Assembly (NCBI GenBank): GCA_017993835.1
Contig: JAGOLX010000038.1
Coordinates: 1-59,453 of the forward strand
Direction of reading: 5' to 3'
Length of the DNA stretch: 59,453 nt
Source: Phycisphaerae bacterium
GTDB taxonomy: Bacteria > Planctomycetota > Phycisphaerae > Sedimentisphaerales > Anaerobacaceae
In this document: in pieces, positions 40,376 through 54,142 of the stretch
How positions within the stretch are numbered: the first letter of the stretch is position 1
How the letters are laid out: each line of letters starts with the position of its first letter
The notes under the pieces: model-generated
Database searches by the model: none
The model's input: only the letters and a program-made list of their open reading frames with translations
What the model was told of the DNA's origin: nothing
Position numbers and translations under genes: made by a program

Positions 40376-41089
40376 TCACTCCTTCTTGGCCGTCTTCAGC
40401 CACGCCGCGTGGACTTCCGCCCGCCGCTCGGGAGGCCATTCCTGGGGGAAGTTCACTCTGGCGAACTCCCCGCATTCTTCGACTGCCGCCCGGTCGTAGG
40501 TCCGCGCCGCCTCAATCTCGTCCTTGCAGAAGCCGAGCCAGCGATGTACGCCGCCGAAGTCGCATTGGGCGAAGTACTTACCGTGCCGTCGGCTATAGGA
40601 GACACCCTTGAACTGAGAGCAGGCGCCGCGCTGCTTTCGCAGGTTGCCCTGGTTCTCCTTGCGGGTGCAGACGCGGAGATTGAACCGGCAGTTGTTGGCC
40701 TTGTTGCCGTCTGCATGATCCACGACCATCCCGTCGGGCGGCTGCATAATCTCGCGGTGCATGAAGATCTGCTTGCCCCTGCCGGACCGCGCAGGGTACC
40801 CGCCGCTGGTGATGTGCCAGTTCCATCGACTGAGCCACTCGTAGTCCGCGGCGTCCACGTAGGCGTAGAGGCCCTCCGTCAATGGAATGAGCCGGACGTC
40901 GCCGCCGGGTGGATCGGACTTGCGCCGGTAGTTCTTGCAGACCACGCCGGGGACGTCGTGCAACTGGCCCGGCCACTGGGGGTGGTTCGCGCATCGCGGC
41001 ACGATCGGCTGGTCCAGAGACAGCCACCGCAGCCACACTTCCGGATCGCAGACGGAATAAATGCAGTTGTGACAATTCGGTCCCGACAT
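40376..41089 (-). CDS. HNH endonuclease with AP2-like DNA-binding domain
   Basis: The product has 237 residues. ATG 41089 is chosen for its GGAAAGGA site. The N-terminus has a Cys cluster (CHNCIYSVCDPEVW, then VPRC and VCKNYR, residues 6-55) that may bind zinc. In the middle is an HNH motif (IFMHREIMQPPDGMVVDHAD, then GNKANNCRFNLRVCTRKEN), and the C-terminal third is an AP2/ERF-like fold (SQFKGVSYSRRHGKYFAQCD...FCKDEIEAARTYDRAAVE). This arrangement is known from free-standing homing endonucleases of phages and bacteria. A decayed partial copy lies 2.3 kb away. Confidence 0.85.
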   Translation of the reverse strand: MSGPNCHNCIYSVCDPEVWLRWLSLDQPIVPRCANHPQWPGQLHDVPGVVCKNYRRKSDPPGGDVRLIPLTEGLYAYVDAADYEWLSRWNWHITSGGYPARSGRGKQIFMHREIMQPPDGMVVDHADGNKANNCRFNLRVCTRKENQGNLRKQRGACSQFKGVSYSRRHGKYFAQCDFGGVHRWLGFCKDEIEAARTYDRAAVEECGEFARVNFPQEWPPERRAEVHAAWLKTAKKE

Positions 41090-41515
41090 GGTTGGTCCTT
41101 TCCATTCGCTCGCCGGTTGTCGGTTCTCAGTTCTCGCAAGGCGTCGGCCCACCCGCCTGCAGCGGCCCGACCGATGCTCCGACGACCCGCATCATTCACC
41201 GTTCATAATACACCCAGAATAGTTGCCTGTACACACAAATATGCACAAATAACCATTTCATTCACGCAAGTCCTTGTCAGCAAGGGAGTAAGGGCGTCAT
41301 TTTTCTTGCCGCAACAGCCAGGATGCAGAGGGGCTGATGGGGGCCACAGAGGGCACCGAACACACAGAGGCGAACTTGTCAGGTTCAGGCGCGGCGATAG
41401 CCGGTAGGGTGGGCTCCGCCCACCGTCTTCGGGCTCAATGCTCACTCAGAAGCGGGCGAAACGCGGGTGCAGACGGAGGTTCGACAAGGTCCTGGCAAAG
41501 GTCCCCGAGGGAGTG
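41090..41515. other. Intergenic region next to the RAYT unit
   Basis: No gene seen. It contains a GTGGGC palindrome (41403-41430) and fragments of ACACAGAGG-type repeat text. Confidence 0.5.
41403..41430. repeat. GGTAGGGTGGGC palindromic repeat
   Basis: GGTAGGGTGGGCTCCGCCCACC followed by GTCTTC, split here as GGTAGGGTGGGC and TCCGCCCACC. Related copies are at 42643-42668 (shortened), 45431-45458 (inverted, including the GTCTTC tail) and 50175-50196. Confidence 0.8.
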
Positions 41516-42593
41516 AAAGGGGTCAGGCTTTGGATATAGGTGTTCCGAGCGTCCGCCAGAGTCCCGGGTACCGGCGACTCTTGCGTTCCTGCGCGATTGC
41601 CTTGCTGAGCCCGTAGAGGTTGCCCATGTGCATGGTCTCGCGGAACCAGCGGTTTGTGACGCCGCAATGCTGCTTGATCCAGCCTGCGAGCACCACCTTC
41701 CAGGCGGCAAGTTTGCGGTCCGATTGCAGATCCGCCCGGGTCTTGCCCAAACGCCGAAGTCCCTCCTGCAGAAGTGCTTCCGCTCGTTCCTCACCGTAGT
41801 CCGCCAACTCGACCCCGCTGCCCAACGCGGGACGTCCCTTCTCCAGCTTCTGGATCAGGGCCCTCTTGCCTTCCCGTGTCCCGATGTACCAACCCCGGCA
41901 TAACTGCTGATGCAGTGCCGCCCGATCTGTGGGGTCCTGGGCTTCGGTCATTACCAAATACCGCTGGTAGCATCGCATTCCCGCCCGCGTCGGCTGGAGC
42001 CCGCCAGCCAAGTGCAACCAGTCTGAATTCACCAGGCACGCCGGACGTATCCGGCGGAAGAACTTGGGAAAACTGCTCAGTTCGTGGTCTCCCAACGTGT
42101 CCACGCGCTGAAGGCCCGCTCGCACAGGATTCAGATGAATGTAGTTGACCACCCGAAGCAGCGAATCACCCGCCTCGATCAGCAGGGCCTTGTAGCGCCC
42201 CTGGAACACGTGACCGCGGTCGTGCACCAGCCGATTGAACCGGTTGGCAAATGTGCTCTGCAACCACTGCATCCCTGCGGCCAGCCGCCCGTCGCGGGTC
42301 TGGACGCAAAGGTGATAGTGATTCGACATGAGCACGTACGCGTGCAGACGCCAGCCGAAACGCTCGCACGCATCGAAGAGCGTCTGCTCAAACGATGCGC
42401 CGGAGCCGGCGACCGCGAAGACGTCCTGACGGTAGTTGCCACGATTGAGCACGTGGTACACCGCTCCGGCATATTCAATTCTCGGGAGCCGAGCCATGAT
42501 CGTACCTTATCAGACCCTACTCCTCCGCGTCAACACCTATACCCAAAGCCTGACCCCTTTTCTTCTCCCCAAAGCCTGACCCCTTTTCTTCTC
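41516..42593. mobile_element. RAYT transposase unit with 29-bp terminal inverted repeats
   Basis: The left end 41516-41544 (AAAGGGGTCAGGCTTTGG then ATATAGGTGTT) is the reverse complement of 42532-42560 with one mismatch. Between them lies a single REP-associated tyrosine transposase gene. At the right side the inner 25 bases (CCAAAGCCTGACCCC then TTTTCTTCTC) are repeated once more, 42543-42567 and 42569-42593, one base apart. The stop codon of the transposase lies inside the left repeat. Confidence 0.85.
41523..42497 (-). CDS. REP-associated tyrosine transposase (RAYT, Y1_Tnp family)
   Basis: The product has 324 residues. The N-terminal Y1 transposase domain shows ARLPRIEYAGAVYHVLNRGN (residues 2-21), the HUH motif as SNHYHLCVQT, and the conserved block HVFQGRYKALLIE...VVNYIHLNPVRAGL. 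The C-terminal extension (about 190-324) is helical and typical of the longer RAYT type. These enzymes nick single-stranded palindromic DNA and are associated with spread of extragenic palindromes. The last codons (ISKA) and stop fall within the left terminal repeat, so the gene and its ends have moved as one piece. Confidence 0.93.
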   Translation of the reverse strand: MARLPRIEYAGAVYHVLNRGNYRQDVFAVAGSGASFEQTLFDACERFGWRLHAYVLMSNHYHLCVQTRDGRLAAGMQWLQSTFANRFNRLVHDRGHVFQGRYKALLIEAGDSLLRVVNYIHLNPVRAGLQRVDTLGDHELSSFPKFFRRIRPACLVNSDWLHLAGGLQPTRAGMRCYQRYLVMTEAQDPTDRAALHQQLCRGWYIGTREGKRALIQKLEKGRPALGSGVELADYGEERAEALLQEGLRRLGKTRADLQSDRKLAAWKVVLAGWIKQHCGVTNRWFRETMHMGNLYGLSKAIAQERKSRRYPGLWRTLGTPISKA

Positions 42594-42642
42594 GAAACCA
42601 CAGAGGCGAATCCCTCACGCGTAGCCGCGGAGGCAATCGGGA

Positions 42643-42668
42643 GGGGTAGGCTCCGCCCGCCGTCTTCC
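42643..42668. repeat. Shortened GTGGGC-type palindrome
   Basis: GGGTAGGCTCCGCCCGCCGTCTTC-type copy, 50 bases right of the RAYT unit; the other flank carries the full copy at 41403-41430. Split form: GGGTAGGCTCC and GCCCGCCGTCTTC. Confidence 0.6.
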
Positions 42669-50223: not shown

Positions 50224-52710
50224 ATGGTCACTCCAAGTAGATCCCAGACGTATGGCGCAACAGTGTTCTTTTTCCTCTTGGTTATCGTCTCGACCGCCAC
50301 GGCCAAATACAGCGGCGGGAGGGGGGAGCCGAACGACCCCTACCAGATCGCCACGGCTGCCGACCTGATCGCCCTCGGCGAGAACCCCAACGACTACGAC
50401 AAGCATTTCATCCTAAGCGCCGATATCGACCTGGACCCCAACCTGCCCGGCGGCAAGGTCTTCGACAGGGCCGTCATCGCGCCGGATACTGACCCAGCCA
50501 ATTACTGGTCGGTATTCGATGGAAGCTCGTTCACCGGCGTCTTCGACGGCGCCGGGCACACAGTCTCACACCTGACGATCACGGGTGGGAGCTATCTCGG
50601 CCTATTTGGCCAAGTTGGCCAATGGGATGCGCCTGCTGGCGAGATTAGAAACCTTGGGGTCGCAGATGTGAACATATTCAGTTCTGGCAGCTATGTTGGC
50701 GGGCTAGTGGGATCAAATGGCCGATTGTATAGCGATGGTGGTACTATGACACACTGCTATAGTACCGGCTCGGTCAGTGGAGATAAGTCTGTTGGGGGCC
50801 TCGTGGGAAGCAATAGGGGGGAGGTTGCCAACTGCTACAGCACAGGTACGGTCCGCGGAGGCAGCTCTATCGGCGGGCTGTTGGGTGAAAACGGTGGGGA
50901 TGTTATCAACTGCTACAGCAAAAGTACAGTTGTCGGAGATTATGATTCTGTTGGTGGATTGGTCGGCACAAACGGCGGACCCTACCTTGCTCTGTTTCAC
51001 GTTCTTCCCTGCGGTTCTATCATCCAGTGCTATAGCACAGGGGCAGTTACCGGCACGGAGGATGTCGGAGGCCTCGTAGGCGCTAATCCGGGGAATGTTC
51101 TTAATTGCTACAGCACAAGTGCAGTCAGTGCAGATAGTGCTGTCGGCGGGTTGGTCGGCGTGAATTGGGTAATGCCCTATCATGATACTAATGCCACAAT
51201 CGATGGCCGTATTGCCAACTGCTACAGCACTGGTGTGGTCATTGGCAATTCTGATGTCGGTGGTCTTGTGGGAGTTGGAGCTCTATTTTACAGCAACGAA
51301 GACCATGTGATCCGTTCGTTCTGGGACACACAGACCTCGGGCCAGACAACCAGCGACGGCGGTACAGGTTTACCTACTGCCGAGATGCAGACGGCCAGCA
51401 CGTTCCTCGACGCCGGCTGGGACTTAGTGGGCGAGACTGAAAACGGCCCCAATGACGTCTGGAAGATCGTCGAAGGCCAAGTATACCCACTCCTGTCCTG
51501 GCAGAAATACGGCGGCGGAACGGGCGAGCCTAACGATCCCTATCTCATCTACACGGCCGAGCATCTGAACGCCTTCGGGGCCGAGCCGAACGACTACTAC
51601 AAGCACTTCAAGCTCATGGCGGACATCGACCTGTCTGGACATATGTATGACAGGGCTGTAATCCCGGGATTTGGCGGCGTCTTCGACGGAAACGACCACA
51701 TAATCTCGAATCTGACGATCGAAGGTGGAAGTGGCCTGGGTCTATTCGGGCGACTCAAAGGCTACGGCGGCGCTGGCGAGGTCACAAACCTGCGACTGGA
51801 CGCCGTAAAGGTCAGTGGCATGTCGTATGTCGGTGGCCTCGTGGGCTACAACTCGCATGGCAGCATCGTCACAAGCCACAGCAGCGGCTCGGTCACCGGC
51901 GATTTCTTTGTCGGCGGCCTCGTGGGACACAACGAGGGTACTCTCGCCCAGTGCAACAGCACCGGCGTGGTTGACGGCAACGACGATGTCGGCGGCCTCG
52001 TGGGTTGGAACTCGGGCAGCATCGGCACAAGCCACAGCAGCGGCTCGGTCATAGGGAATGACTCTGTCGGTGGCCTTGCGGGCACAAGCAGTGGGGAGGT
52101 TACCGACTGCTTTAGCACGAGTACGGTTAGTGGAGGTGACCGCGTTGGTGGGTTGATTGGTAGGGGCTACATGTTCGCGCGTTATGGACTTCATCGCGGC
52201 ATTGTGGACCGCTGCTACAGTACCGGTACGGTCGAAGGTTCTTGGGGTGTTGGTGGGCTCGTGGGAGGGAATGGAGGGGAGGTTACCTGCTGCTACAGTA
52301 CGAGTACCGTCAATGGAGACGGCGATGTGGGTGGCCTGGTCGGTATGAATTGGGGAAGCTACACCTTCGGCGTTCCACACTTTTTCACCGGACTTATCGC
52401 CCAATGCTACAGCACCGGCTCGGTCAGCGGAAACGACGATGTCGGCGGTCTTGTGGGATCGAATACGGACGTGTATTATGGTGATGAAGGCGCCGTGAGC
52501 TACAGTTTCTGGGACATCGAAACATCGGGGCAGGCAGCCAGTGCCGCCGGCACAGGCAAGACCACAGCCGAGATGCAGACGGCCGCGACCTTCCTCGACG
52601 CCGGCTGGGACTTCGTGGGCGAGACGGCCAACGGGACCGAGGACATCTGGTGGATCAACGAAGGGAAGGACTATCCGAGATTGTGGTGGGAGCTGATTCC
52701 TGAGAATTGA
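50224..52710 (+). CDS. Secreted GLUG-repeat protein, adhesin-like
   Basis: The product has 828 residues. ATG 50224 has a GGAGG site; the open frame extends upstream through repeat DNA and is not used. The signal peptide is residues 1-27 (ATVFFFLLVIVSTATA). The protein consists of two halves, each opening with a (G/E)PNDPYxIxTAxxLxAxGxxPNDYxKHF block (residues about 33 and about 434) and each closing with a FWDxxTSGQxxSxxGTG...AEMQTAxTFLDAGWDxVGE block. Between them are many GLUG repeats of the form VGGLVGxNxGxVxNCYSTGxVxG, which build a beta-helix-like rod. GLUG proteins act as surface adhesins in some bacteria. The second half appears to be a duplication of the first. Confidence 0.9.
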   Translation: MVTPSRSQTYGATVFFFLLVIVSTATAKYSGGRGEPNDPYQIATAADLIALGENPNDYDKHFILSADIDLDPNLPGGKVFDRAVIAPDTDPANYWSVFDGSSFTGVFDGAGHTVSHLTITGGSYLGLFGQVGQWDAPAGEIRNLGVADVNIFSSGSYVGGLVGSNGRLYSDGGTMTHCYSTGSVSGDKSVGGLVGSNRGEVANCYSTGTVRGGSSIGGLLGENGGDVINCYSKSTVVGDYDSVGGLVGTNGGPYLALFHVLPCGSIIQCYSTGAVTGTEDVGGLVGANPGNVLNCYSTSAVSADSAVGGLVGVNWVMPYHDTNATIDGRIANCYSTGVVIGNSDVGGLVGVGALFYSNEDHVIRSFWDTQTSGQTTSDGGTGLPTAEMQTASTFLDAGWDLVGETENGPNDVWKIVEGQVYPLLSWQKYGGGTGEPNDPYLIYTAEHLNAFGAEPNDYYKHFKLMADIDLSGHMYDRAVIPGFGGVFDGNDHIISNLTIEGGSGLGLFGRLKGYGGAGEVTNLRLDAVKVSGMSYVGGLVGYNSHGSIVTSHSSGSVTGDFFVGGLVGHNEGTLAQCNSTGVVDGNDDVGGLVGWNSGSIGTSHSSGSVIGNDSVGGLAGTSSGEVTDCFSTSTVSGGDRVGGLIGRGYMFARYGLHRGIVDRCYSTGTVEGSWGVGGLVGGNGGEVTCCYSTSTVNGDGDVGGLVGMNWGSYTFGVPHFFTGLIAQCYSTGSVSGNDDVGGLVGSNTDVYYGDEGAVSYSFWDIETSGQAASAAGTGKTTAEMQTAATFLDAGWDFVGETANGTEDIWWINEGKDYPRLWWELIPEN

Positions 52711-53437: not shown

Positions 53438-54142
53438 TCACCCCCTTCGGATGCGGCGGCGCCCCGCCTTTGCCGGCTCCTTCCGCGGCCGGCCCACCGG
53501 CAACGGCCGGACCCGCCGGCCCAGCAGCGTCTCCAGCTTGCTCACGAACCCATCGCTGCCCAGCGGCCTGCCCGTATGCGTCCGCAGACGGATTTTCGCC
53601 ATCTCGTCCTGCGTCAACCCCTCCGCCAGTTCCTTGCGCCAGCCCTGTGCGGAGAACTGCTTGTACCACCACGCGAGGTTCAGCAGTTCGGATTGGGCCC
53701 TCTCATCCGTATGGGCCGTCGCACTGGACCACTCGTACGTCCACGCCCGCCGGCACAGCCTCGCCCGCACCGGATTGAGCTCGATGTACTTCATCGCCTG
53801 CCACAGGTGCCGCCCGTCGAGGGCACAGGAATGGAAGCGACCCTGCCAGAGGTGCCCCGACCGCTTGTGAAAGCGATTGATGTACTGGCTGTAGAGGACG
53901 TGGGTCCGCCCGATCCCCTTGGCCAGGGAATCCTCCGCATGGGGGATCGCGACGATGTGCACGTGGTCGGTCATCAGGCAGTAGCCCAGGATCTCCAGGC
54001 CGTACTTGCCCGCCTGTGCCTGGAGGATCTCCAAGTACACCCGCCGGTCGTCATCGACCATGAAGACCGGCTCGCGGTTGTTCCCGCATTGGGTGATGTG
54101 GTGGGCACATCCAACGGCAATAGCTCGGGCCATTCTGGGCAT
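53438..54142 (-). CDS. REP-associated tyrosine transposase (Y1_Tnp family), second copy
   Basis: The product has 234 residues. The N-terminus is PRMARAIAVGCAHHITQCGNNREPVF, the HUH motif is MTDHVHIVAIP, and the conserved blocks INRFHKRSGHLWQGRFHSCALD and MKYIELNPVRARL follow. It belongs to a different branch from the transposase at 41523-42497: it is shorter, with a basic C-terminal tail (RPRKEPAKAGRRRIRRG). No clear inverted repeats were seen at its ends. The 10-bp tandem array at 54204-54249 lies upstream of its start. Confidence 0.9.
   Translation of the reverse strand: MPRMARAIAVGCAHHITQCGNNREPVFMVDDDRRVYLEILQAQAGKYGLEILGYCLMTDHVHIVAIPHAEDSLAKGIGRTHVLYSQYINRFHKRSGHLWQGRFHSCALDGRHLWQAMKYIELNPVRARLCRRAWTYEWSSATAHTDERAQSELLNLAWWYKQFSAQGWRKELAEGLTQDEMAKIRLRTHTGRPLGSDGFVSKLETLLGRRVRPLPVGRPRKEPAKAGRRRIRRG

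Follow-up and report, generated by a model that had tools for sequence, protein, structure and literature searches.

Transposases of the RAYT type are usually presented as domesticated proteins. Related to them is an element type that has already been described, the TIRYT, a tyrosine transposase accompanied by inverted repeats instead of REP hairpins. As described, the TIRYT/TIRtron consists of a Y1 gene lying between long inverted repeats that carry a GGGGWSAS motif, overlap the 3' end of the gene in some cases and also occur elsewhere in the genome, alone, paired or grouped (Di Nocera et al. 2013, PMC3733652). Transposases of TnpAREP subclass 2.1 are long proteins with an extra C-terminal HTH domain, similar to Bac_DnaA_C, HTH_23 or HTH_28, and have no REPs nearby; the subclass is said to match RAYT group 1 (Bertels et al. 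2017), and its identity with the TIRYTs is called probable (Quentin et al. 2018, PMC6006769).

A Y1 transposase gene between inverted repeats

In the window, i.e. the whole stretch of 59,453 nucleotides that was analysed, we found a gene of this kind enclosed by two arms of 29 nt each, which are complementary at 28 of 29 positions, lie 987 nt apart and both contain GGGGTCAG (Table 1). Exact 14-mer inverted pairs spaced by 300-3000 nt are rare in the window, where only the element and one unrelated pair provide them, and the end sequence recurs in relatives of the gene, from which we conclude that the arms did not arise by chance. The earlier note had described these arms as near-perfect repeats with a single mismatch and had placed the TGA of the transposase inside the left one, and both observations hold. 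Its interval of 41516-42593 does contain the element, but also includes an extra tip, whereas the element proper ends at 42560. Likewise, the tandem duplication it had seen at the right end is real, namely a perfect repeat of 26 nt (42542-42567 and 42568-42593), which is equivalent to 25 bases repeated one base apart; however, the repeat unit is made up of the arm's outer 19 nt and 7 nt of flank (TCTTCTC) rather than the inner 25 bases. No evident microhomology is present at the borders of this duplication. Between the arms, the Y1 gene is the only gene.

Table 1 Position and basis of the features assigned to the element in the window.
Feature	Position	Strand	Basis
Whole element, probable TIRtron, 1045 bp	41516..42560	(-), gene strand	Inverted repeat pair bounding the ORF
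Downstream terminal inverted repeat; codes C-terminal TPISKA and TGA at 41523-41525	41516..41544	(-)	
Y1/HUH transposase P0001, 324 aa; HYH (residues 60-62) and Tyr119 intact	41523..42497	(-)	Pfam, NCBIfam, alignment, model
C-terminal domain, modelled DnaA-domain-IV-like fold, residues 237-324	41526..41789	(-)	AF2 model and structure alignment
HUH-Y1 catalytic core, residues 12-121	42135..42464	(-)	Pfam and structural match
Putative -35 box (TTGACG) for the transposase gene, immediately internal to the upstream repeat	42528..42533	(-)	Inference
Upstream terminal inverted repeat	42532..42560	(-)	Inverted repeat pair
Outer, second copy of tip and flank, repeating the 26 nt of 42542-42567 exactly and in tandem	42568..42593	(-)	

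The encoded protein, P0001, matches the Pfam family Y1_Tnp (8.5e-11), and the residues H60, H62, Y119 and N123 are invariant in an alignment of 22 sequences. It thereby shares with the TIRYTs a RAYT-like Y1 domain with the HUH motif and the catalytic tyrosine. The core of the model matches those of E. coli TnpAREP (4ER8) and of IS200/IS605 transposases; a search of the PDB by sequence yielded nothing useful, and a search of PHROGs gave no match. The C-terminus is modelled as a fold resembling domain IV of DnaA. When this domain was modelled on its own (AF2 pLDDT 89), it aligned to the DNA-binding domain of DnaA in 3PVP with a VIA-align Z of 8.9 (rmsd 2.8, 87 aligned residues) and to 1J1V with a Z of 8.5, and its top structural matches were all DnaA entries (Z 8.9, 8.5, 8.3, 7.6 and 7.4, the next unrelated fold reaching 3.9). 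Since the Foldseek E-values for the same DnaA matches are weak (1.4 and above), we base the assignment on the consistency of the top matches and on the aligned relative L042, the only relative that matches the Bac_DnaA_C profile by sequence; P0001 itself does not match this profile.

The ends of the element were compared with those of the better known groups. As single strands, the ends fold weakly (-1.4 to -2.7 kcal/mol, z -0.6 to -2.3). A REP is a hairpin whose base carries a GT[AG]G tetranucleotide, and inspection of the flanks revealed no GTAG-tagged hairpin. The element has the HUH-Y1 core in common with E. coli TnpAREP/RAYT and its REPs or REPINs, but its two ends form an inverted pair and lack the tagged hairpin. 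The earlier note had called the gene a RAYT transposase; we gave up a REP-flanked (REPtron) reading in favour of a TIRYT in view of the weak end folds, the missing hairpin and a score of 62.5 bits against NCBIfam REP_Tyr_transpos, which is below the equivalog cut-off of 80. Membership in the IS200/IS605 family (IS608, ISDra2) was also rejected despite the common core and fold, as the ends of that family are subterminal single-stranded hairpins and those of the window element are terminal inverted repeats with only weak single-strand folds; moreover, the window unit has no second gene.

Taken together, the GGGGTCAG tips, the lack of an end hairpin and the modelled DnaA-domain-IV-like C-terminus indicate that the window element belongs to the TIRtrons, as an autonomous unit of ~1 kb that resembles an IS and codes for a HUH/Y1 transposase of the TIRYT (TnpAREP subclass 2.1) type, a reading to which we assign a probability of roughly 80%. 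As in the TIRtrons, the window arms are long inverted repeats carrying GGGGWSAS. The likeness to subclass 2.1 was judged by the features described for it, i.e. the C-terminal HTH and the absence of REPs, the HTH being represented in P0001 by the modelled fold only, with no Pfam match.

Ends and gene copies in related genomes

Homologues were gathered by protein search (one genome collection; relatives and phylum), and a GGG-tipped inverted pair was found close to the gene in 48 of the 115 loci with a homologue. We kept 43 distinct loci and set five aside as duplicates or doubtful. In most of the 43, ~50-80 nt separate the upstream tip from the ATG, and at the other end of the gene the downstream tip is located at the stop codon or overlaps it; the stop codon falls inside the downstream arm in 33, in many of them as the TGA of TGACCCC, and in 23 the upstream arm is followed by TTGAC, which could represent a -35 box. 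This survey shows that near-perfect arms with an embedded stop codon are ordinary for the TIR-flanked class; a recent move, which had previously been suggested from the exact ends, is thus not supported by them or by the stop codon within the repeat. The tip GGGGTCAGGCTTT is largely kept in the closest relatives (Planctomycetota, Opitutales) at protein identities of 47-65%, and the conservation of the tip while the identity drops to 47% argues that the ends are functional. These closest homologues come from different orders and a different phylum. Plasmids contained only distant homologues (at most 42% identity). Viral contigs contained no relative of the protein and 55 exact matches of the 15-nt end, none of which had the extended end or a partner.

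As proposed earlier, further copies of the ends were sought with and without the gene, and both kinds were detected. The genome of the window holds one intact gene copy and three further ends of about arm length without a gene (C17, C27, C102). In four genomes of the same genus (G003, G004, G007 and G008), ends without the gene were identified, and a reversed control pattern gave none. They include an 85-bp gene-less end pair, or mini-element, in G004, a diverged gene-less pair of ~74 bp in G008, and a 5' remnant in G007, in which the end is followed by the first 11 codons. Repeats that occur elsewhere, here as three solo ends and as the pairs in G004 and G008, are also a property of the TIRtrons. 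The mini-element of G008 (C139, L155 ~1450-1530) lies at the edge of a repeat that is dispersed in this genome, and other copies of the repeat begin within a few bases.

The richest picture is provided by G052, a genome of the same family, with 22 homologous matches and 15 ends (control: 0). Its copies are 94.8-98.6% identical to the copy on C420 and are located at other places, and two copies of a second subfamily are 94% identical, with homology ending at the upstream tip. In general, homology between copies extends no further than the inverted repeats or a few bases past them; in one pair, ~7 nt beyond the tip are shared. In an internal-deletion derivative of 120 bp on C355, the first and the last codons are joined directly and both ends are retained, the downstream tip being diverged. 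Two contigs, C420 and C427, carry close homologues with degraded repeats. At the C420 locus (L074), a TIRYT end of a different subfamily (GAACTTAAGTTCTTAAGGGTCGACCC type) lies upstream of the gene, just outside the degraded upstream end.

Comparison of these genomes, most of which are fragmented MAGs, supports the view that units with such ends move, based on the gene-less ends, the two-ended mini-elements and the scattered gene-bearing copies of G052. The two-ended gene-less derivatives are comparable to REPINs. Gene-less internal-deletion derivatives and several gene-bearing copies within one relative, together with the tandem copies of flank and tip found at many ends (see below), appear to be additions to the TIRtron description (PMC3733652). 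For the family, the suggestion of a unit moving as a whole is thus supported by the gene-bearing copies of G052 and the gene-less ends, but a recent move of the window copy is not: a DNA search with its flanks in nine genomes of the genus found no clean empty site, so the insertion in the window is not dated. We conclude that the data support a spread of gene-bearing and gene-less units in the family. In G007, synteny with the right-hand side of the window is limited to a metalloprotease homologue (49% protein identity), the other neighbours searched being absent. For the mini-elements of G004 and G008, flank alignments were one-sided and no clean empty site was found; G000 and G006 align to the left flank of the G004 mini-element up to ~8 nt from the tip and lack the element, and the right flank is not homologous.

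The gene might instead be a domesticated, vertically inherited RAYT-like gene that is itself immobile and mobilises small end-bearing repeats in trans, its own ends serving only in regulation or binding. REP-flanked RAYTs have been described as vertical, single-copy genes (PMC8049555; PMC6006769), and the presence of just one intact gene in the own genome would fit, as would the existence of gene-less ends. However, a protein search of eight genomes of the same genus found no close homologue, the best match having 40% identity over most of the length, so that its distribution is patchy and it does not occupy a conserved locus, as the earlier note would have expected of a gene that does not move. 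Moreover, gene-bearing copies and fragments that are 94-99% identical are present at many places in G052, and the phylogenetic positions of the closest homologues do not suggest vertical inheritance either. We therefore regard a domesticated gene as unlikely. It is far less probable still that the repeats belong to an unrelated transposase and that the Y1 gene is a passenger. DDE elements typically have long inverted repeats, which would agree with this idea, but in the 43 loci the ends co-occur with the Y1 protein family at fixed distances, the stop codon mostly lies inside the arm, and there is no other gene between the arms.

Tandem copies of flank and tip

The duplication at the right end of the window element is one instance of a pattern that we refer to as stutter, defined as an exact tandem repeat of at least 12 nt at a tip, mostly consisting of part of the tip and the adjacent host flank. 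With this threshold, which was chosen after examples had been seen, stutter was detected at 20 of 85 element ends (24%), distributed over 15 of the 43 loci, compared to 10 of 288 control windows taken from intergenic parts of the same loci (3.5%; Fisher p 9e-8, the windows of one locus overlapping and not being independent) and one of 1700 shuffles. A second set, composed of gene-less ends and G052 ends, displayed stutter at 6 of 23 ends. Neither set represents a blind test, since the pattern was first spotted while reading some of the same loci, and since the second set was gathered by end sequence and not by repeats, but with some flanks read before the count.

The most likely origin of the outward tandem copies is that the tip is processed repeatedly and leaves them as by-products, a reading that we hold with low confidence. 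Slippage during normal replication, or microhomology in G-rich sequence, could generate them with no role of the transposase, and we give this explanation somewhat less than even odds: the repeat units are short, often contain G/C runs, and are also present in some of the control windows. Still, the frequencies in both sets of ends exceed the 3.5% of the control, whose matches are derived from two loci only (L053 and L073), which themselves hold further tips, one of them being rich in these, and the lack of evident microhomology at the borders of the 26-nt duplication also speaks against this explanation.

Proposed mechanism and surroundings of the element

Under the mechanism that we propose, the DnaA-domain-IV-like C-terminus would bind the duplex inverted repeats and the Y1 domain would cleave and rejoin single strands at the GGGG tips, by which the unit, or a deleted two-ended derivative, might reach new intergenic sites by copying or by moving. 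Since a putative promoter sits in the upstream end and the stop codon is supplied by the downstream one, the gene fills the element almost from tip to tip. The protein pairs a HUH nuclease for single strands with a modelled, DnaA-like domain that would bind duplex DNA, which offers a testable explanation of how hairpin-free ends could be recognised. As a tentative and rather doubtful extension, TIRYTs could form a distinct, actively mobile HUH class that recognises duplex repeats via the DnaA-domain-IV-like domain, in which cleavage at the GGGG tip makes the outward tandem copies of flank and tip as a scar of one-ended processing, and arrays of tips could be the origin of REP-like clusters. 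Movement of TIRYT units runs against the usual view of such transposases as tame, and within the TIRYT clade, the step from an autonomous element to REP/REPIN-like repeats becomes testable.

Several further features were observed in the window. A second Y1/RAYT-like ORF (53438-54142, minus strand, 234 aa) is 31% identical to P0001 over the N-terminal part, and no GGGGTC inverted pair was seen around it. The other exact 14-nt inverted pair is located at 50473 and 53027, ~2.5 kb apart. To the left of the element, an ORF on the minus strand (40376-41152) resembles HNH-type endonucleases by eye and belongs to a family that has several copies both in the own genome and within the genus. A palindromic repeat (GGGTGGGCTCCGCCCACC type), which is dispersed in genomes of the genus, flanks the element on both sides in the same orientation (41392-41430 and 42640-42667), and the segment 39946-40350 has many copies of 75-95% identity across the own genome, representing a dispersed intergenic repeat family.
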